Assembly (NCBI GenBank): GCA_902196205.1
Contig: CABIKM010000011.1
Coordinates: forward strand, 1-64,000
From: Candidatus Methylomirabilis lanthanidiphila
Lineage (GTDB): Bacteria; Methylomirabilota; Methylomirabilia; Methylomirabilales; Methylomirabilaceae
Length of the DNA: 64,000 bases
Reading direction: 5' to 3'
Under the pieces are notes generated by a model. It was given only the letters and a program-made list of their open reading frames with translations. It had not been told where the DNA came from and did no database searches. The translations under genes were made by a program, and so were the position numbers. Positions 11,705-39,299 of the stretch are shown piece by piece. The stretch's first letter is position 1. Each line of letters starts with the position of its first letter.

Positions 11705-11754
11705 AAAATTCCCCCTCGCCCCCCTTTATCAAAGGGGGGGAACAGGGAGAATTG
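11705..11754. repeat. G6/C6 hairpin repeat, copy A
   Basis: AATTCCCCCTCGCCCCCC, a TTTATCAAA loop and then GGGGGGG, ending near GAGAATTGAG. It is one of eight family members in the window. Confidence 0.8.
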
Positions 11755-11850: not shown

Positions 11851-11890
11851 AAAATCCCCCCCTTTTAAAAGGGGGGTCAGGGGGGATTTC
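11851..11890. repeat. G6/C6 hairpin repeat, copy B
   Basis: AAAATCCCCCCCTTTTAAAA then GGGGGGTCAGGGGGGATTTC: the same hairpin family in a compact form. Confidence 0.8.
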
Positions 11891-34701: not shown

Positions 34702-35937
34702 ATGCGGCTTTCGCGGATCAAGAAGCGGCGGATCCTCCGATTTTTGGCCATTATGGGCCCGGGGATCATCACCGCCAGCGTCGATCAGGACGCGGGGGGG
34801 ATTACAACTTATTCCCTCGCCGGCGCCCAGTTCGGCTATGGTCTGCTCTGGTCGTTATTCTTCATCGCCATCGCGCTTGCTATTGTCCAGGAGATGGGCT
34901 CGCGAATGGGGGTCGTCAGCGGCAAGGGCCTTGCCGAATTGATTCGCGAGCGGTTTGGGGTTCGAATCACATTCGGCGTGATGCTGGTTCTGGTGCTGGC
35001 GAACCTGGCCAACACCGTCTCCGAGTTTGCCGGCATCGCCGCAAGCCTGGAGCTCTTTGGCATCAGCCGCTATGTCACGGTGCCGCTCGCTGCGTTCCTG
35101 GTGAGCTGGCTGGTGGTCAAGGGGACGTACCGTCTGGTCGAGCGGATCTTCCTTGGCGCCAGCCTCTTTTACGCCGTCTATCTGGTGTCGGCCTTTCTGG
35201 CCGGTCCGACGTGGCCCACCGTCTTACGCCAGACGATCAGGCCCAACTTCCATATCGAGCGCGACTATCTCACGATGCTCATCACCCTGGTGGGGACCAC
35301 AATCGCGCCCTGGATGCAGTTCTATATCCAGGCGTCGATTGTCGATAAAGGTGTTCGGCGCCAGGCGTACGGCTACGTCAAGCTCGATGTCTGGATCGGC
35401 AGCCTCGTGGCATCGGCTGTGGCGTTTTTCATTATCGTGGCGTGCGGGGCCACCCTGAATACGCACGGGGTTCGGATCGAGACGGCCGAACAAGCCGCCA
35501 TGGCGATCGAACCGTTCGCAGGCCAGTACGCGACGCTCCTCTTTGCCCTCGGCCTGTTTAACGCCTCCCTCTTTTCCGCAGCCATCGTCCCCCTCTCTAC
35601 GGCATATGCAGTCTGTGAGGGGCTGGGCTGGGACACGGGCATCAATCGGAGCTTTCGCGAGGCTCCAGGGTTTTTCAGCATCTACCTGAGCATGGTGGGC
35701 GCCGGCGCGCTCTTGATCCTCTGGCCGAGGGCGCCGCTCATCACGATCATGTACCTCTCCCAGACCTTAAACGGCATCCTGCTCCCGGCTGTCCTGGTCT
35801 TCATGCTCCTGTTGGTCAACGATCCGGCGATCATGGGGACGCAGGTGAACTCGCCGACCTACAACCTGATCGCGTGGGGGACGGCCTTCCTGATGGTGGT
35901 CCTCACGCTGTTGCTGCTGGTGACCAGCATTGTGTAA
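34702..35937 (+). CDS. NRAMP-family divalent cation transporter, non-canonical site
   Basis: This 411-residue polytopic protein has the NRAMP fold but altered metal-site motifs. The canonical helix-1 DPGN reads D30-A-G-G33 (SVDQDAGGITT) and the helix-6 MPHNL reads A202-P-W-M-Q (TTIAPWMQFY), so the conserved Met and Asn are lost. Changes of this kind are described for NRAMP-related Mg2+ transporters, while classical Mn2+/Fe2+ NRAMPs keep both. A stranded 3' end of an MgtE_N/CBS gene lies 24 bases upstream, supporting an ancestral operon with a Mg2+-sensing protein. Mg2+ as substrate is an inference. Confidence 0.85.
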   Translation: MRLSRIKKRRILRFLAIMGPGIITASVDQDAGGITTYSLAGAQFGYGLLWSLFFIAIALAIVQEMGSRMGVVSGKGLAELIRERFGVRITFGVMLVLVLANLANTVSEFAGIAASLELFGISRYVTVPLAAFLVSWLVVKGTYRLVERIFLGASLFYAVYLVSAFLAGPTWPTVLRQTIRPNFHIERDYLTMLITLVGTTIAPWMQFYIQASIVDKGVRRQAYGYVKLDVWIGSLVASAVAFFIIVACGATLNTHGVRIETAEQAAMAIEPFAGQYATLLFALGLFNASLFSAAIVPLSTAYAVCEGLGWDTGINRSFREAPGFFSIYLSMVGAGALLILWPRAPLITIMYLSQTLNGILLPAVLVFMLLLVNDPAIMGTQVNSPTYNLIAWGTAFLMVVLTLLLLVTSIV

Positions 35938-35947
35938 CCTTCTCCAC

Positions 35948-35987
35948 TGATCCCCCCTTTATCGAAAGGGGATGAGGAGGGATTTTG
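35948..35987. repeat. G6/C6 hairpin repeat, copy C
   Basis: TGATCCCCCCTTTATCGAAA, GGGGATGAGGAGGGATTTTG: a partly decayed member of the family. Confidence 0.7.
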
Positions 35988-36054
35988 GAGTATTCGCCGG
36001 TAAAAGAACGGAGAATCGTCAAGAGGAAGCTCTCAGCGAATGGCCTCTTCCACT

Positions 36055-36094
36055 GGTTCCCCCCTTTCATAAAGGGGGGCGCGGGGGGATTTCG
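36055..36094. repeat. G6/C6 hairpin repeat, copy D
   Basis: GGTTCCCCCCTTTCATAAA, GGGGGGCGCGGGGGGATTTCG. It directly abuts a truncated methylase tail. Confidence 0.8.
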
Positions 36095-36210
36095 AGGGCG
36101 ACCAACTCCAACGCCAGATCGAAACGACGGATCGCGAAATCAACGCCTTGGTGTACAAGCTTTGCGGCATGACGGATCGTGACTGGACGACCGTTGAGGT
36201 GTATAGCGCT
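36091..36210 (+). pseudogene. 3' remnant of a type II restriction-modification methylase
   Basis: Read in frame, the DNA encodes FEGDQLQRQIETTDREINAL followed by VYKLCGMTDRDWTTVE. This is the characteristic C-terminal tail (LxxQIexTDreIdaLVYeLYGLT) of large Eco57I-like restriction/methylase proteins. Everything upstream is missing and the frame runs straight into hairpin repeat copy D. The remnant is fused in frame to the following unknown gene, whose own start is probably ATG 36211. Confidence 0.65.
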
Positions 36211-37167
36211 ATGATTTTCAGACGAACATATCGAATAAGGTCAGACGTGGCCATTGACCCTTCATTGAGATTCTCCTTTGGCAGGCTAGACGCGGTTCTC
36301 CGTAGAGAAAACGATGAAAACGCCCAATTCATTTTGGAGCGCCCGATTAAACCAGAAGACCTGATGATTCCCGATTCAGTACCTCAGCCAAAAGCAGGGC
36401 CGATCAAGGCCCATCTCTTGTTTCCCGCTCTCAGAGACAAATCTATTTATGAAGAATTCGAAGAAGCTGTCACGTTTCTTGAAGCATATCTCTTCCAGCA
36501 CGGGATCCTGAGCATCGATCGGGACGATATCAGAATCGAGTTGATGCCCCAAAATGAAGCCGAAGACGCAATGCTTCAAAAGCCATTTCTAGTTAGGCAG
36601 ATGGCTCTACAACGTTCAAAGCCGTCTCTTGCAGAAATAACAAAAGACTGGATGGATCCTGAATTACTGCCTGTAGCCTATGATCTTCGCGAACTCCTGG
36701 TCCCATACTCGCTCTTTAGGCGAGCATTCCTTGCCATGGAAGACGATGACTACCCAATCGCATTCTTGTCGTTGTTTCTAATCATCGAGGGGTTCTATGG
36801 TGAGAGCAAACATGAGAACCTTGATAAAATATTTAGGAATCAGCAAGAGCTAGTAACTATTGTCCAGCAAATCCTAGATTCGGATCGGGGGGTGGGGAAG
36901 GCTTTCGAGGACTTTCCAGGGCCAAAGTCCCCGCCGACTGTCGAGGGAATCTTCAAAACAATGGTGGTGGCGCGCGGCCATGCTTCACATTTTAGTGTTG
37001 AGAAACCCCGACCTTACATAACGGCTGCGAACCGAAGAGATTATGCTGACCTGGCTTACGCAATGATAAAAATTGCCGCAGTGGTCCTAGACACCCAGAT
37101 AAGGAAGATTGCTTTGAGGGAAGGCATTCCAGTTCTTCCACGGAAGACCAGAGCGACCTCAACGTGA
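36211..37167 (+). CDS. Unrecognised protein, 318 residues
   Basis: I do not recognise this protein. From ATG 36211 (MIFRRTYRIRSDVAIDPSLRF) it has an N-terminal beta-rich half and a helical C-terminal half with PIAFLSLFLIIEGFYGESKH and VVARGHASHFSVEKPRPYI, which recall RM-associated or abortive-infection-like helical proteins without matching a named family. There is no signal peptide or clear membrane segment. Base composition is lower in GC than the neighbouring core genes, and it lies in a repeat-rich stretch behind a methylase remnant, which suggests transferred accessory DNA. Confidence 0.6.
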   Translation: MIFRRTYRIRSDVAIDPSLRFSFGRLDAVLRRENDENAQFILERPIKPEDLMIPDSVPQPKAGPIKAHLLFPALRDKSIYEEFEEAVTFLEAYLFQHGILSIDRDDIRIELMPQNEAEDAMLQKPFLVRQMALQRSKPSLAEITKDWMDPELLPVAYDLRELLVPYSLFRRAFLAMEDDDYPIAFLSLFLIIEGFYGESKHENLDKIFRNQQELVTIVQQILDSDRGVGKAFEDFPGPKSPPTVEGIFKTMVVARGHASHFSVEKPRPYITAANRRDYADLAYAMIKIAAVVLDTQIRKIALREGIPVLPRKTRATST

Positions 37168-37268
37168 TATCGTTATGACCATATGACCATGTGCCATCAA
37201 CTGGATTTCGAACTATATGGTTGTTCGACTTGCTTTTCAGGATCGAGGAAAGTTTAAGGAGGAAATTT

Positions 37269-37436
37269 TCGCGTGAGATGGCCGATCTTCCCGAGGAGCA
37301 ACACGAAGCGGTGATCGACCTCGTTGGTTACCCGAACGGAAAACGTGCAGTAGGCGGAGCGAAATCCCCCCGCGCCCCCCTTTTGGAAAGGGGGGTCGGA
37401 GTGAGAGAGAGTGATGCTAACGTGCGGGCTGCATGA
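37269..37436 (+). pseudogene. Short frame truncated by a hairpin repeat
   Basis: MADLPEEQHEAVIDLVGYPN looks like the beginning or an internal piece of a protein, but after GKRAVGG the frame reads through hairpin repeat E (KSPRAPLLERG). A second short frame just upstream (MVVRLAFQDRGKFKEEIFA) ends at a stop next to it. I take this as debris of an unidentified gene. Confidence 0.3.
37361..37397. repeat. G6/C6 hairpin repeat, copy E
   Basis: GAAATCCCCCCGCGCCCCCC, TTTTGGAAA, GGGGGGTC: a full-length copy. Confidence 0.85.
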
Positions 37437-37486
37437 CGTCATACCTCATTCTCCATTAATTTGAATCTATGAAAGGAGGGCATCTG

Positions 37487-37954
37487 ATGGAGATGGAATG
37501 GGAAGAGATCCGCGGTCTGGTAGAGGCGATGCGAAAGGATTTATTTACGCTTAAAGCCCCAACCCAACCACTGACCGCCCTTGAGACCGTTCGAACTCAA
37601 TTTCGTGAGGCTGTTAGCGTCTTCAAGTCAAATCCGACGAAAGAAGGCGCGTTGGAGATTATGCAGCTCAAAGAACAATTGATCACCCTTGCCAAACAAA
37701 CCCCAGGCTTCAATCTCGCTTCTCATGCTTTTGCAGAGTTGTCGAGTGAAATCGAAGCGGGCCTCAAGACTATGAAGGATTCATCGATGCTCAGCTACCC
37801 GATAATCGCCGCGTGGGGTTTTAGTCCAGGCGAAATCCCCCCACGCCCCCCTTTTGGAAAGGGGGGAATTTCAACGAAGGAAATCGAGTGTTGCCTGTGG
37901 AGGGAACAGGTGATGGGTACAACGAGGCGTTACGCGAATAGTCTTTTCTACTAA
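37487..37954 (+). CDS. Unrecognised helical protein with repeat-derived tail
   Basis: This 155-residue frame starts at ATG 37487 after a strong AAAGGAGGG. Residues 1-105 are mostly helical and polar (EMEWEEIRGLVEAMRKDLF, then EGALEIMQLKEQLITLAKQ) and look like a genuine small protein of unknown function. From about residue 115 the frame reads hairpin repeat F (EIPPRPPFGKGG), so the original C-terminus has been replaced by repeat insertion. It lies between copies E and F. Confidence 0.5.
   Translation: MEMEWEEIRGLVEAMRKDLFTLKAPTQPLTALETVRTQFREAVSVFKSNPTKEGALEIMQLKEQLITLAKQTPGFNLASHAFAELSSEIEAGLKTMKDSSMLSYPIIAAWGFSPGEIPPRPPFGKGGISTKEIECCLWREQVMGTTRRYANSLFY
37831..37872. repeat. G6/C6 hairpin repeat, copy F
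   Basis: CGAAATCCCCCCACGCCCCCC, TTTTGGAAA, GGGGGGAATTTC: a full-length copy inside the 3' end of a small gene. Confidence 0.85.
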
Positions 37955-37993
37955 TCCCCCTTACAAAAGGGGGGTTAGAGGTGATTTCTTGAG
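37951..37993. repeat. G6/C6 hairpin repeat, copy G
   Basis: CTAATCCCCCTTACAAAAGG, GGGGTTAGAGGTGATTTC. It ends next to the start codon of the DUF559 gene. Confidence 0.75.
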
Positions 37994-38399
37994 ACCCCAC
38001 CTCACATATAATCCTACACTGAAACCGAAGGCGCGCAGTCTGCGTACGGCCATGACCGACTGCGAGCAGATCATCTGGTACCACCTGCGTCGGAAACAGG
38101 TGCTGGGTGTGCAGTTTTACCGACAGAGGCCTCTCGGGCATTATATCGTCGACTTCTATGCTCCCATGGCGAAGCTGGTCGTAGAAATTGACGGTTCCCA
38201 ACATGCGAGTGCTGAACATGTGATCAAAGATACCCAACGCGATGCCTATCTGGCAGGGCAGGGGATACGCGTTCTTCGATTCAATGACCTGCAGGTGTTG
38301 CAGGAAATTGAGGCGGTGATGCGGGAAGTCTTTCGGGTGATAGCGGAGCAGGTGGAGCGAAATCCCCCCACGCCCCCCTTTTGTAAAGGGGGGATGTAG
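37989..38399 (+). CDS. DUF559 (Vsr-like) endonuclease-fold protein
   Basis: This 136-residue protein matches the DUF559 family of the PD-(D/E)XK/Vsr-like nuclease fold: ARSLRTAMTDCEQIIWYHLRR, VQFYRQRPLGHYIVDFYAP and the acidic-site region KLVVEIDGSQH. It should be a small DNA endonuclease, possibly nicking. Repeat copy G overlaps its start and copy H encodes its last residues (NPPTPPFCKGG), so the gene is bracketed by the hairpin family. The true C-terminus before the repeat is probably near EVFRVIAEQV. Confidence 0.82.
   Translation: MRPHLTYNPTLKPKARSLRTAMTDCEQIIWYHLRRKQVLGVQFYRQRPLGHYIVDFYAPMAKLVVEIDGSQHASAEHVIKDTQRDAYLAGQGIRVLRFNDLQVLQEIEAVMREVFRVIAEQVERNPPTPPFCKGGM
38358..38399. repeat. 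G6/C6 hairpin repeat, copy H
   Basis: CGAAATCCCCCCACGCCCCCC, TTTTGTAAA, GGGGGGATGTAG: a full-length copy at the 3' end of the DUF559 gene. Confidence 0.85.
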
Positions 38400-38452
38400 A
38401 GACGACCGGTTGATAGCCTGTTTGAGAGCGAAAGCGAAGGAAGGAGCATAGT

Positions 38453-38665
38453 ATGGGTAAGATCAAGCTGGAAATCTCTTTGGAAGAGCTTGCAAAGACT
38501 ATTACGGAGTTGCCGCCGAAAGAGCGAAAAGAGCTTTGGTCGCTCTTGGCGACCCTCGAAGAGGCATCTGATCGAGGCGCTTTGGAAGCCCTTAAAGAAT
38601 CCGAAGAAGATGTCAAGAAAGGCAGACTCCATAGTTGTGAAGAGGTCTTTGGAGTATGTCTCTAA
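38453..38665 (+). CDS. Small antitoxin-like protein, apparently orphan
   Basis: This 70-residue acidic protein (GKIKLEISLEELAKTITELP, then EEDVKKGRLHSCEEVFG) resembles small antitoxins of RelB/Phd-like addiction modules, in which a helical body precedes a DVKxGRxxSxEEV tail. A RelE-like toxin would normally follow, but only a 22-codon overlapping frame (from ATG 38655) is present before HicB. I infer an antitoxin whose toxin was lost; the family assignment is tentative. ATG 38453 has GAAGGAG upstream. Confidence 0.5.
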   Translation: MGKIKLEISLEELAKTITELPPKERKELWSLLATLEEASDRGALEALKESEEDVKKGRLHSCEEVFGVCL

Positions 38666-38778
38666 TGCGCAAACCGCAACTCACGGCACGGGCAAAAAAG
38701 GGGGATCAACGTCGTCCCTGCTGAGACGGAAGAACAGATCGGTAGCGATAGGGGATGAACGGGAAGGAGGTTAGGTCG

Positions 38779-38988
38779 GTGGACAAGGAAATCATCTTTC
38801 TAGTAGAAGAATCCTCAGAAGGAGGGTACCAGGCCAGGGCGCTTGGCTATCCCATCTTCACCGAGGCGGATACTTTTGAAGAACTCAAAGGAATGGTGCA
38901 AGATGCCGTGCGCTGCCATTTTGAGGAGGCAGAGAGGCCGTCCCTCATTTGCCTGCACCTGGTTAAGGATGAGGTCATCACTGTATGA
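38779..38988 (+). CDS. hicB: HicB-like antitoxin
   Basis: This 69-residue protein has the degraded RNase H fold of small HicB antitoxins: EIIFLVEESSEGGYQARAL, then YPIFTEADTFEELKGMVQDA. GTG 38779 is chosen because AAGGAGG stands 8 bases before it; an ATG eight codons upstream has no such site. It overlaps hicA by 4 bases (ATGA). It lacks an obvious C-terminal DNA-binding domain. Confidence 0.82.
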   Translation: MDKEIIFLVEESSEGGYQARALGYPIFTEADTFEELKGMVQDAVRCHFEEAERPSLICLHLVKDEVITV

Positions 38989-39230
38989 AATTGCCAAGAG
39001 ACATCGGCGGCAAGGAATTAGCCAAGGTCCTTGGTAAATACGGATACCGAATCACCCACCAAACAGGAAGCCACGTCCGGTTAACCTCCTCCTTCAAAGG
39101 AACGGAACACCACGTTACCGTACCAAGCCATAGGGCGCTAAGGGCCGGTACGCTTAGCGGCATATTAAACGACATCGCGACGTATCTGGAGGTGGAGAAG
39201 CAATCGCTTGTGGAGGATCTGTTTGGATGA
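38985..39230 (+). CDS. hicA: HicA mRNA interferase toxin
   Basis: An 81-residue dsRBD-fold HicA toxin: LPRDIGGKELAKVLGKYGYR, then TGSHVRLTS with the catalytic histidine, and HHVTVPSHRALRAGTLSGIL. HicA cleaves mRNA and tmRNA in other bacteria. The antitoxin gene comes first here, the reverse of the hicA-hicB order first described in E. coli, but common elsewhere. Confidence 0.88.
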   Translation: MKLPRDIGGKELAKVLGKYGYRITHQTGSHVRLTSSFKGTEHHVTVPSHRALRAGTLSGILNDIATYLEVEKQSLVEDLFG

Positions 39231-39299
39231 TGAAGGCGTAGATGGGTGCGGGCTTTGGCTTGACAGGGTTGGGGGAGAGAGGGTAGAAGAGAGCGGAGC

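Follow-up and report, generated by a model that had tools for sequence, protein, structure and literature searches.

A DUF559 nuclease gene between inverted hairpin repeats as a candidate minimal mobile element

The hairpin cluster and its nuclease gene

Hairpin repeats cluster around a small nuclease gene in the DNA analysed here (hereafter the window, a stretch of 64,000 nucleotides from Candidatus Methylomirabilis lanthanidiphila), which raises the question of whether the nuclease is what spreads them. The first-pass annotation, made from sequence alone, had reported eight copies of one hairpin, six of them within 2.5 kb, and this held once core coordinates and a random-sequence control were available. 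The eight copies of the hairpin CCCCCCTTTNNNAAAGGGGGG have their cores at 11719-11739, 11857-11876, 35952-35971, 36059-36079, 37375-37395, 37846-37866, 37956-37974 and 38373-38393; those at 35952 and 37956 are imperfect, and six of the eight fall in 35952-38393. In none of 30 random sequences with the dinucleotide composition of the window were the exact cores reached. Pattern searches, on which all our genome-wide hairpin counts rest, found 65 exact cores of this repeat type (type A, the type of the window, with CCCCCCTTT arms) in the 3.05-Mb genome that contains the window (G000), and no copy of the reversed type-A control pattern in the same 3.05 Mb. Because the genome average is thus about 1 per 47 kb, the 4 exact copies in 2.4 kb represent a real cluster.

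Most copies consist of the hairpin plus an extra G-run arm (NNN-GGGGGGATTT) on one side, as in AAAGGGGGG-CGC-GGGGGGATTT; this arm is the tail referred to below. The tail lies on the left of the copies at 11706-11739, 37361-37395 and 37832-37866 (all minus strand) and on the right of those at 11857-11889 and 36058-36093 (both plus strand), while a degenerate copy at 35951-35985 (plus strand) sits directly 3' of the Nramp stop codon. The two remaining copies frame the DUF559 gene, a 136-aa ORF with a TTG start (37989-38399, plus strand), which is the sole full-length DUF559 gene of the genome. The left end of this unit (37953-37988, plus strand) comprises the core 37956-37974 and a degenerate third-strand tail up to the start codon, so that the TTG at 37989 is the first base after it. 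The right end (38359-38393, minus strand), inverted with respect to the left one, comprises a third-strand tail and the core 38373-38393; it encodes the last codons of the gene (ERNPPTPPFCKGGM), and the ORF stops just beyond it. Both tails therefore point inward. In a relative (G033), the intact left end of the ortholog, GGGGGATTTC-ATG, likewise abuts the start codon. The further claim of the first-pass annotation, that two hairpins lie flush against the gene and supply its start region and last codons, also held. No RNA family of Rfam matched in the region.

The ORF matches PF04480 (DUF559) with an E-value of 4e-33 and, weakly, MTES_1575, with no other Pfam match. Its structure model (pLDDT 87.5) matches 3hrl, a gonococcal DUF559 protein, and 3r3p, the catalytic domain of the EDxHD homing endonuclease I-Bth0305I (sequence E-value 8e-5, Foldseek TMt 0.80). 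Residues E26, D55, D68 and H72 are invariant in 54 sequences, and their spacing equals that of E73, D102, D115 and H119, the residues proposed to be catalytic in the Caulobacter DUF559 protein VsrA, itself proposed as a mismatch-repair nuclease (PMC12907096). YcjD-like proteins had earlier been predicted as PD-(D/E)XK nucleases (PMC1189080). Fold and conserved catalytic residues are shown by these comparisons; cutting of the hairpins by DUF559 is inferred and has no biochemical proof.

Comparison with relatives indicated that the whole cluster belongs to an insertion of about 3.3 kb between the Nramp and RadC genes (35926-39249), which holds the six hairpins, the DUF559 unit and HicA. In six relatives of the genus the Nramp-RadC gap measures only 19-33 bp between aligned ends, against about 3.3 kb in the window. 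In G033 a DUF559 unit occupies the same left flank (TAACCTTCTCCACT) that in the window carries the gene-less hairpin at 35952. A small ORF and the HicA toxin gene (38454-39230) fill the rest of the insertion, which also contains a 339-aa ORF (36148-37167) without a Pfam, NCBIfam or PADLOC match. A coding remnant at 36090-36210 (GDQLQRQIETTDREINALVYKL...), in our reading similar to the C-terminal end of a type IIG restriction enzyme, lies immediately next to a hairpin; in G033 (L300), behind the last hairpin, it reads through it. Two other members of the genus (G022 and G027) hold different cargo at the Nramp-RadC site, so that it looks like an insertion hotspot. Since PADLOC returned only weak, domain-level matches (DpdF, mREase_II, HEase), nothing here points to a named defence system.

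Bracketing of DUF559 genes across bacteria

Surveying 95 genomes of the window's phylum with Pfam, we identified two sorts of full-length DUF559 genes, bracketed either by type A or by a second hairpin, type B (CCCTCTCC...GGAGAGGG-NNN-GGGTGAGGG and variants); the genes of the latter sort had looked repeat-free at first. Bracketing was found for 15 of the 16 full-length genes of this survey. Additionally, a scan of genome contigs with a DUF559 alignment headed by the window protein returned 80 loci of many phyla, in order of their similarity to that alignment. A motif-free test showed that upstream and downstream flanks are inverted repeats of each other (score >=16) in 51% of 77 DUF559 genes; the 1315 windows of equal size taken from other parts of these loci gave 0%. 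A hairpin classifier, applied to 106 non-redundant DUF559 genes of many phyla, assigned the same type to both sides within 150 nt in 69; 33 of the others had a hairpin on one side, 2 had mixed types and 2 had none. Same-type brackets were absent from the controls of this classification, namely 443 random windows of the same loci, 24 HicA genes and 18 Y1_Tnp genes. The classifier is heuristic, and many contigs are metagenome assemblies. In separate samples, 9 of 17 DUF559 genes on viral contigs were bracketed, as were 2 of 8 plasmid copies (on both sides). Same-type, type-specific bracketing of DUF559 across phyla is shown by these data, and the expectation raised for the window, that DUF559 genes of many genomes would be flanked by the repeat, held in a general, type-specific form, for types A and B.

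The E. coli gene ycjD has a single motif, downstream only. About 3,360 of 5,426 E. coli genomes contain, at the sapF locus, ycjD together with the triplex motif that follows it (L321, L322 and L324, compared with L323 and L325), and the E. coli examined that lack ycjD have efflux genes at this site. We considered ycjD as an insertion polymorphism and rejected it, as the locus alternates with an efflux operon and so shows no simple unit insertion, with only the one motif downstream.

The bracketing hairpins share a common anatomy, in which a third arm can pair in antiparallel orientation with the purine arm, G facing G and either A or T facing A; type A also conforms to this purine third-strand scheme. 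The better fit lies on the gene side in 129 bracketing hairpins and on the outer side in 22 (p = 1e-19), and a fit >=0.85 on the gene side was obtained for 95 of 175. Loop triplets differ between left and right ends in 35 of 37 pairs, the commonest being TTA at the left end and CCA at the right. Several variants were observed beside these forms. In G001-G006, which belong to another family of the same order, hairpins carry third-strand tails on both sides (e.g., G001:C28:2539-2584) in the form AAATCCCCCC-CCCCCCTTTNNNAAAGGGGGG-GGGGGGATTT with two different loops, and could conceivably represent a left and a right end joined together. Type-B-flanked DUF559 genes at L123, L231 (G126) and L295 (G127) have another, different long hairpin beside them (CGACTAGGCTG...CAGCCTAGTCG). 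The reversed type-B control pattern occurs 24 times in G142 (Clostridia, L130) and 12 times in G113 (L101), where a mirror-image repeat may exist.

Repeat type follows the protein. On the DUF559 tree the A/B label changes 6 times, compared with 30 when labels are shuffled (none of 500 shuffles went as low), and a careful tree without two faulty rows again gave 6 changes (bootstrap 5-6), or 3 with stricter labels. Copy number follows as well: type-A hairpins are more numerous in genomes with a type-A DUF559 (p = 2e-7, 50 genomes), and the association persisted when two copies were subtracted per genome, because bracketing itself adds two (p = 8e-6), and within the window's genus (p = 0.002). 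Shared ancestry is uncorrected in all these values, and genome relatedness was only partly controlled. The first-pass annotation would have been refuted by repeat abundance independent of DUF559, which is not what we found.

Five type-A-rich genomes had entered the sample through a type-B DUF559 gene, and a family search recovered a matching second DUF559 in 4 of the 5, bracketed by type A in G128, G126 and G131 and accompanied by a one-sided type-A hairpin in G116; in G124 this search found no second, type-A gene. A one-to-one rule between hairpins and DUF559 was rejected, as G019, G034 and G124 carry many hairpins without a matching intact gene. Tail subtypes (ATTT versus TTTC) were only partly supportive: TTT-tailed copies occur in all 3 genomes with a TTTC-type gene, and G000 has almost none, but G021 and G034 have them without an intact TTTC-type gene.

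Signs of mobility and competing explanations

In some genomes the repeat is nearly confined to the gene. The sole two exact type-A hairpins of a 5-Mb Bacteroidetes genome (G106) are those at its DUF559 gene, 4 of 5 in a Chlorobaculum (G107) lie within 0.8 kb of the gene, and 2 of the 3 copies of its own repeat in a Lachnospiraceae genome (G136) bracket the gene. Elsewhere, gene-less doublets, in which a short spacer separates the left end from the right end and the tails point inward, recur at about 58 bp (G128) or 57-60 bp (the window's genus); they equal the DUF559 unit minus its gene, a form seen in several genomes only. Intermediate states exist, since the DUF559 genes of L052, L053 and L055 have internal deletions with the hairpins intact at both ends. 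Those of L052 and L055 are independent deletions in different genomes at one shared locus, next to an ABC ATPase gene. One filled and empty site pair was identified in G021 (C13), where a 106-bp insertion holding a doublet (L218:5810-5915) interrupts a copy of a RAYT-like (Y1_Tnp) gene (L218:5418-6550), and neighbouring paralogs on the same contig represent the empty site. At this insertion, the sole one examined, there was no clear target duplication, only short sequence shared at the junctions. Within the genus, DUF559 presence is patchy and its genomic neighbours vary.

The explanation that we favour, with moderate confidence, is that the arrangement of hairpin and tail, DUF559 gene, and inverted tail and hairpin, about 0.45 kb in all, constitutes a minimal autonomous mobile element, with cutting and mobilisation by DUF559 inferred. 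Its ends would be imperfect inverted copies of an intrastrand-triplex hairpin with the antiparallel third strand on the gene side, and lone hairpins and inverted doublets would be its non-autonomous derivatives, as REPINs are to RAYTs. Ends that become single-stranded or extruded, for example at replication forks, would fold into hairpin or triplex; DUF559, with its Vsr/EDxHD fold, would recognise its cognate arms and nick or cut there, and the freed end would then, by microhomology and without target-site duplication, be copied into or joined to another site. Units, internally deleted units and gene-less doublets would multiply as a result. The spread by cutting and the copying step are inferred throughout. 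Several points speak against a mobile element: about a third of DUF559 genes have a one-sided hairpin, ycjD of E. coli has its motif downstream only, G019, G034 and G124 are rich in hairpins but lack a matching intact gene, VsrA has its proposed mismatch-repair role (PMC12907096), and the single insertion examined reveals no transposition signature.

The main rival, which we consider unlikely, holds that DUF559 is a selfish gene of the homing-endonuclease kind, which invades existing hairpin doublets, the repeats being its target and spread by slippage, recombination or another enzyme. The EDxHD homing endonuclease fold, the exact fit of the gene into the doublet spacer and the microhomology junctions favour it. 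Against it, the copies of G106 and G107 lie almost all at the gene, which argues that the unit brought the repeats in rather than finding them, and the internally deleted units point from unit to doublet.

Less likely still is that DUF559 is a housekeeping repair nuclease, Vsr-like or structure-specific, that is retained beside structured DNA, with repeats of structural or regulatory function (e.g., terminators) and a linkage that is selected rather than mobile. The role proposed for VsrA agrees with this, and hairpins followed by stop codons could terminate transcription. However, the gene is patchy within the genus and its neighbours vary, bracketing concerns DUF559 only and not HicA or Y1 genes, and the E. 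coli triplex motifs showed neither promoter nor terminator activity (PMC4666352).

We give slightly less weight again to a RAYT or other transposase of the same genomes that moves the repeats with DUF559 as passenger. The eight Y1_Tnp genes of the window's genome suggest it, but no type-A hairpin lies within about 1.5 kb of any of them, none of the 18 Y1_Tnp loci is bracketed, a doublet interrupts one RAYT-like gene, and G019 has 27 hairpins without any Y1_Tnp match; on the distance and bracketing data we rejected a RAYT as mobiliser of these repeats. Chance clustering or an artefact of assembly or annotation, which one genome taken alone might suggest, is all but ruled out by recurrence in many phyla and several collections and by the 0 of 443 control windows.

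Comparison with known systems

The proposed element resembles insertion sequences with MITEs in having an autonomous unit, inverted ends, and internally deleted and gene-less derivatives. It differs from insertion sequences in that no DDE, HUH or serine/tyrosine recombinase domain can be recognised and that the one insertion examined shows no clear target duplication. With I-Bth0305I and Vsr, DUF559 shares the fold and the pattern of catalytic residues. Unlike EDxHD homing endonucleases, it is a stand-alone domain of about 120 aa between inverted repeats, with no intron or intein in the window, and the doublets might be empty alleles of a homing-type gene, although no conversion event was seen. 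Unlike Vsr, it has no linked cytosine methyltransferase in the window, where its neighbours are Nramp, HicA and RadC.

The repeats share with the E. coli intrastrand triplex motif (TM_ECO/PIT) the three-arm purine-motif layout and the inverted pairs with two loops, which in E. coli always combine a TTA and a CCG copy (PMC4666352). Type B is this known motif. Type A has a different sequence with the same layout, and its triplex is inferred from fit, triplex formation having been shown in vitro only for TM_ECO (PMC4666352). That motif was described without a linked mobility gene and without mention of DUF559 (PMC4666352); in the open-access literature searched, no paper links DUF559 to these repeats, although an unseen report is possible. 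We incline, with some reserve, to a bolder reading, in which such units form an unrecognised, cross-phylum class of minimal (about 0.45 kb) mobile elements, an EDxHD/Vsr-fold nuclease between inward-facing triplex ends, and have given rise to some of the most widely distributed short repeats of bacteria, including the E. coli triplex motifs. If so, DUF559 would be the missing enzyme that spreads these common repeats, and a family of unknown function would gain a role. DUF559 is in any case the mobility candidate that Holder et al. lacked for the E. coli motifs, and because PF04480 is small and structurally characterised (PDB 3hrl), the origin of the repeats is directly testable.

The closest parallel is the REP/REPIN-RAYT (TnpA_REP) system, in which a small nuclease gene also lies between inverted short palindromes (PMC3116915, PMC2817692), repeats are likewise dispersed and form inverted doublets (doublets here in several genomes only), nuclease and repeat types co-vary, and orphan repeats persist (PMC3116915, PMC2817692). 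The first-pass annotation had proposed this resemblance and, with it, that DUF559 would be a new kind of repeat mobiliser. The resemblance is supported as analogy and not as membership, because neither the HUH nuclease nor the GTAG or CGTC tag that defines REPs at the palindrome foot (PMC3733652) was present when tested for: DUF559 is a PD-(D/E)XK/EDxHD nuclease, not an HUH/Y1 tyrosine nuclease (PF01797), and its repeats carry a third-strand arm instead of the tag. The new mobiliser is supported too, with cutting and moving by DUF559 itself inferred. By analogy, the DUF559 unit would then be a counterpart of REP-RAYT and, if the reading is correct, a second, independent invention of the lifestyle of a nuclease plus a hairpin-repeat population known from RAYTs.
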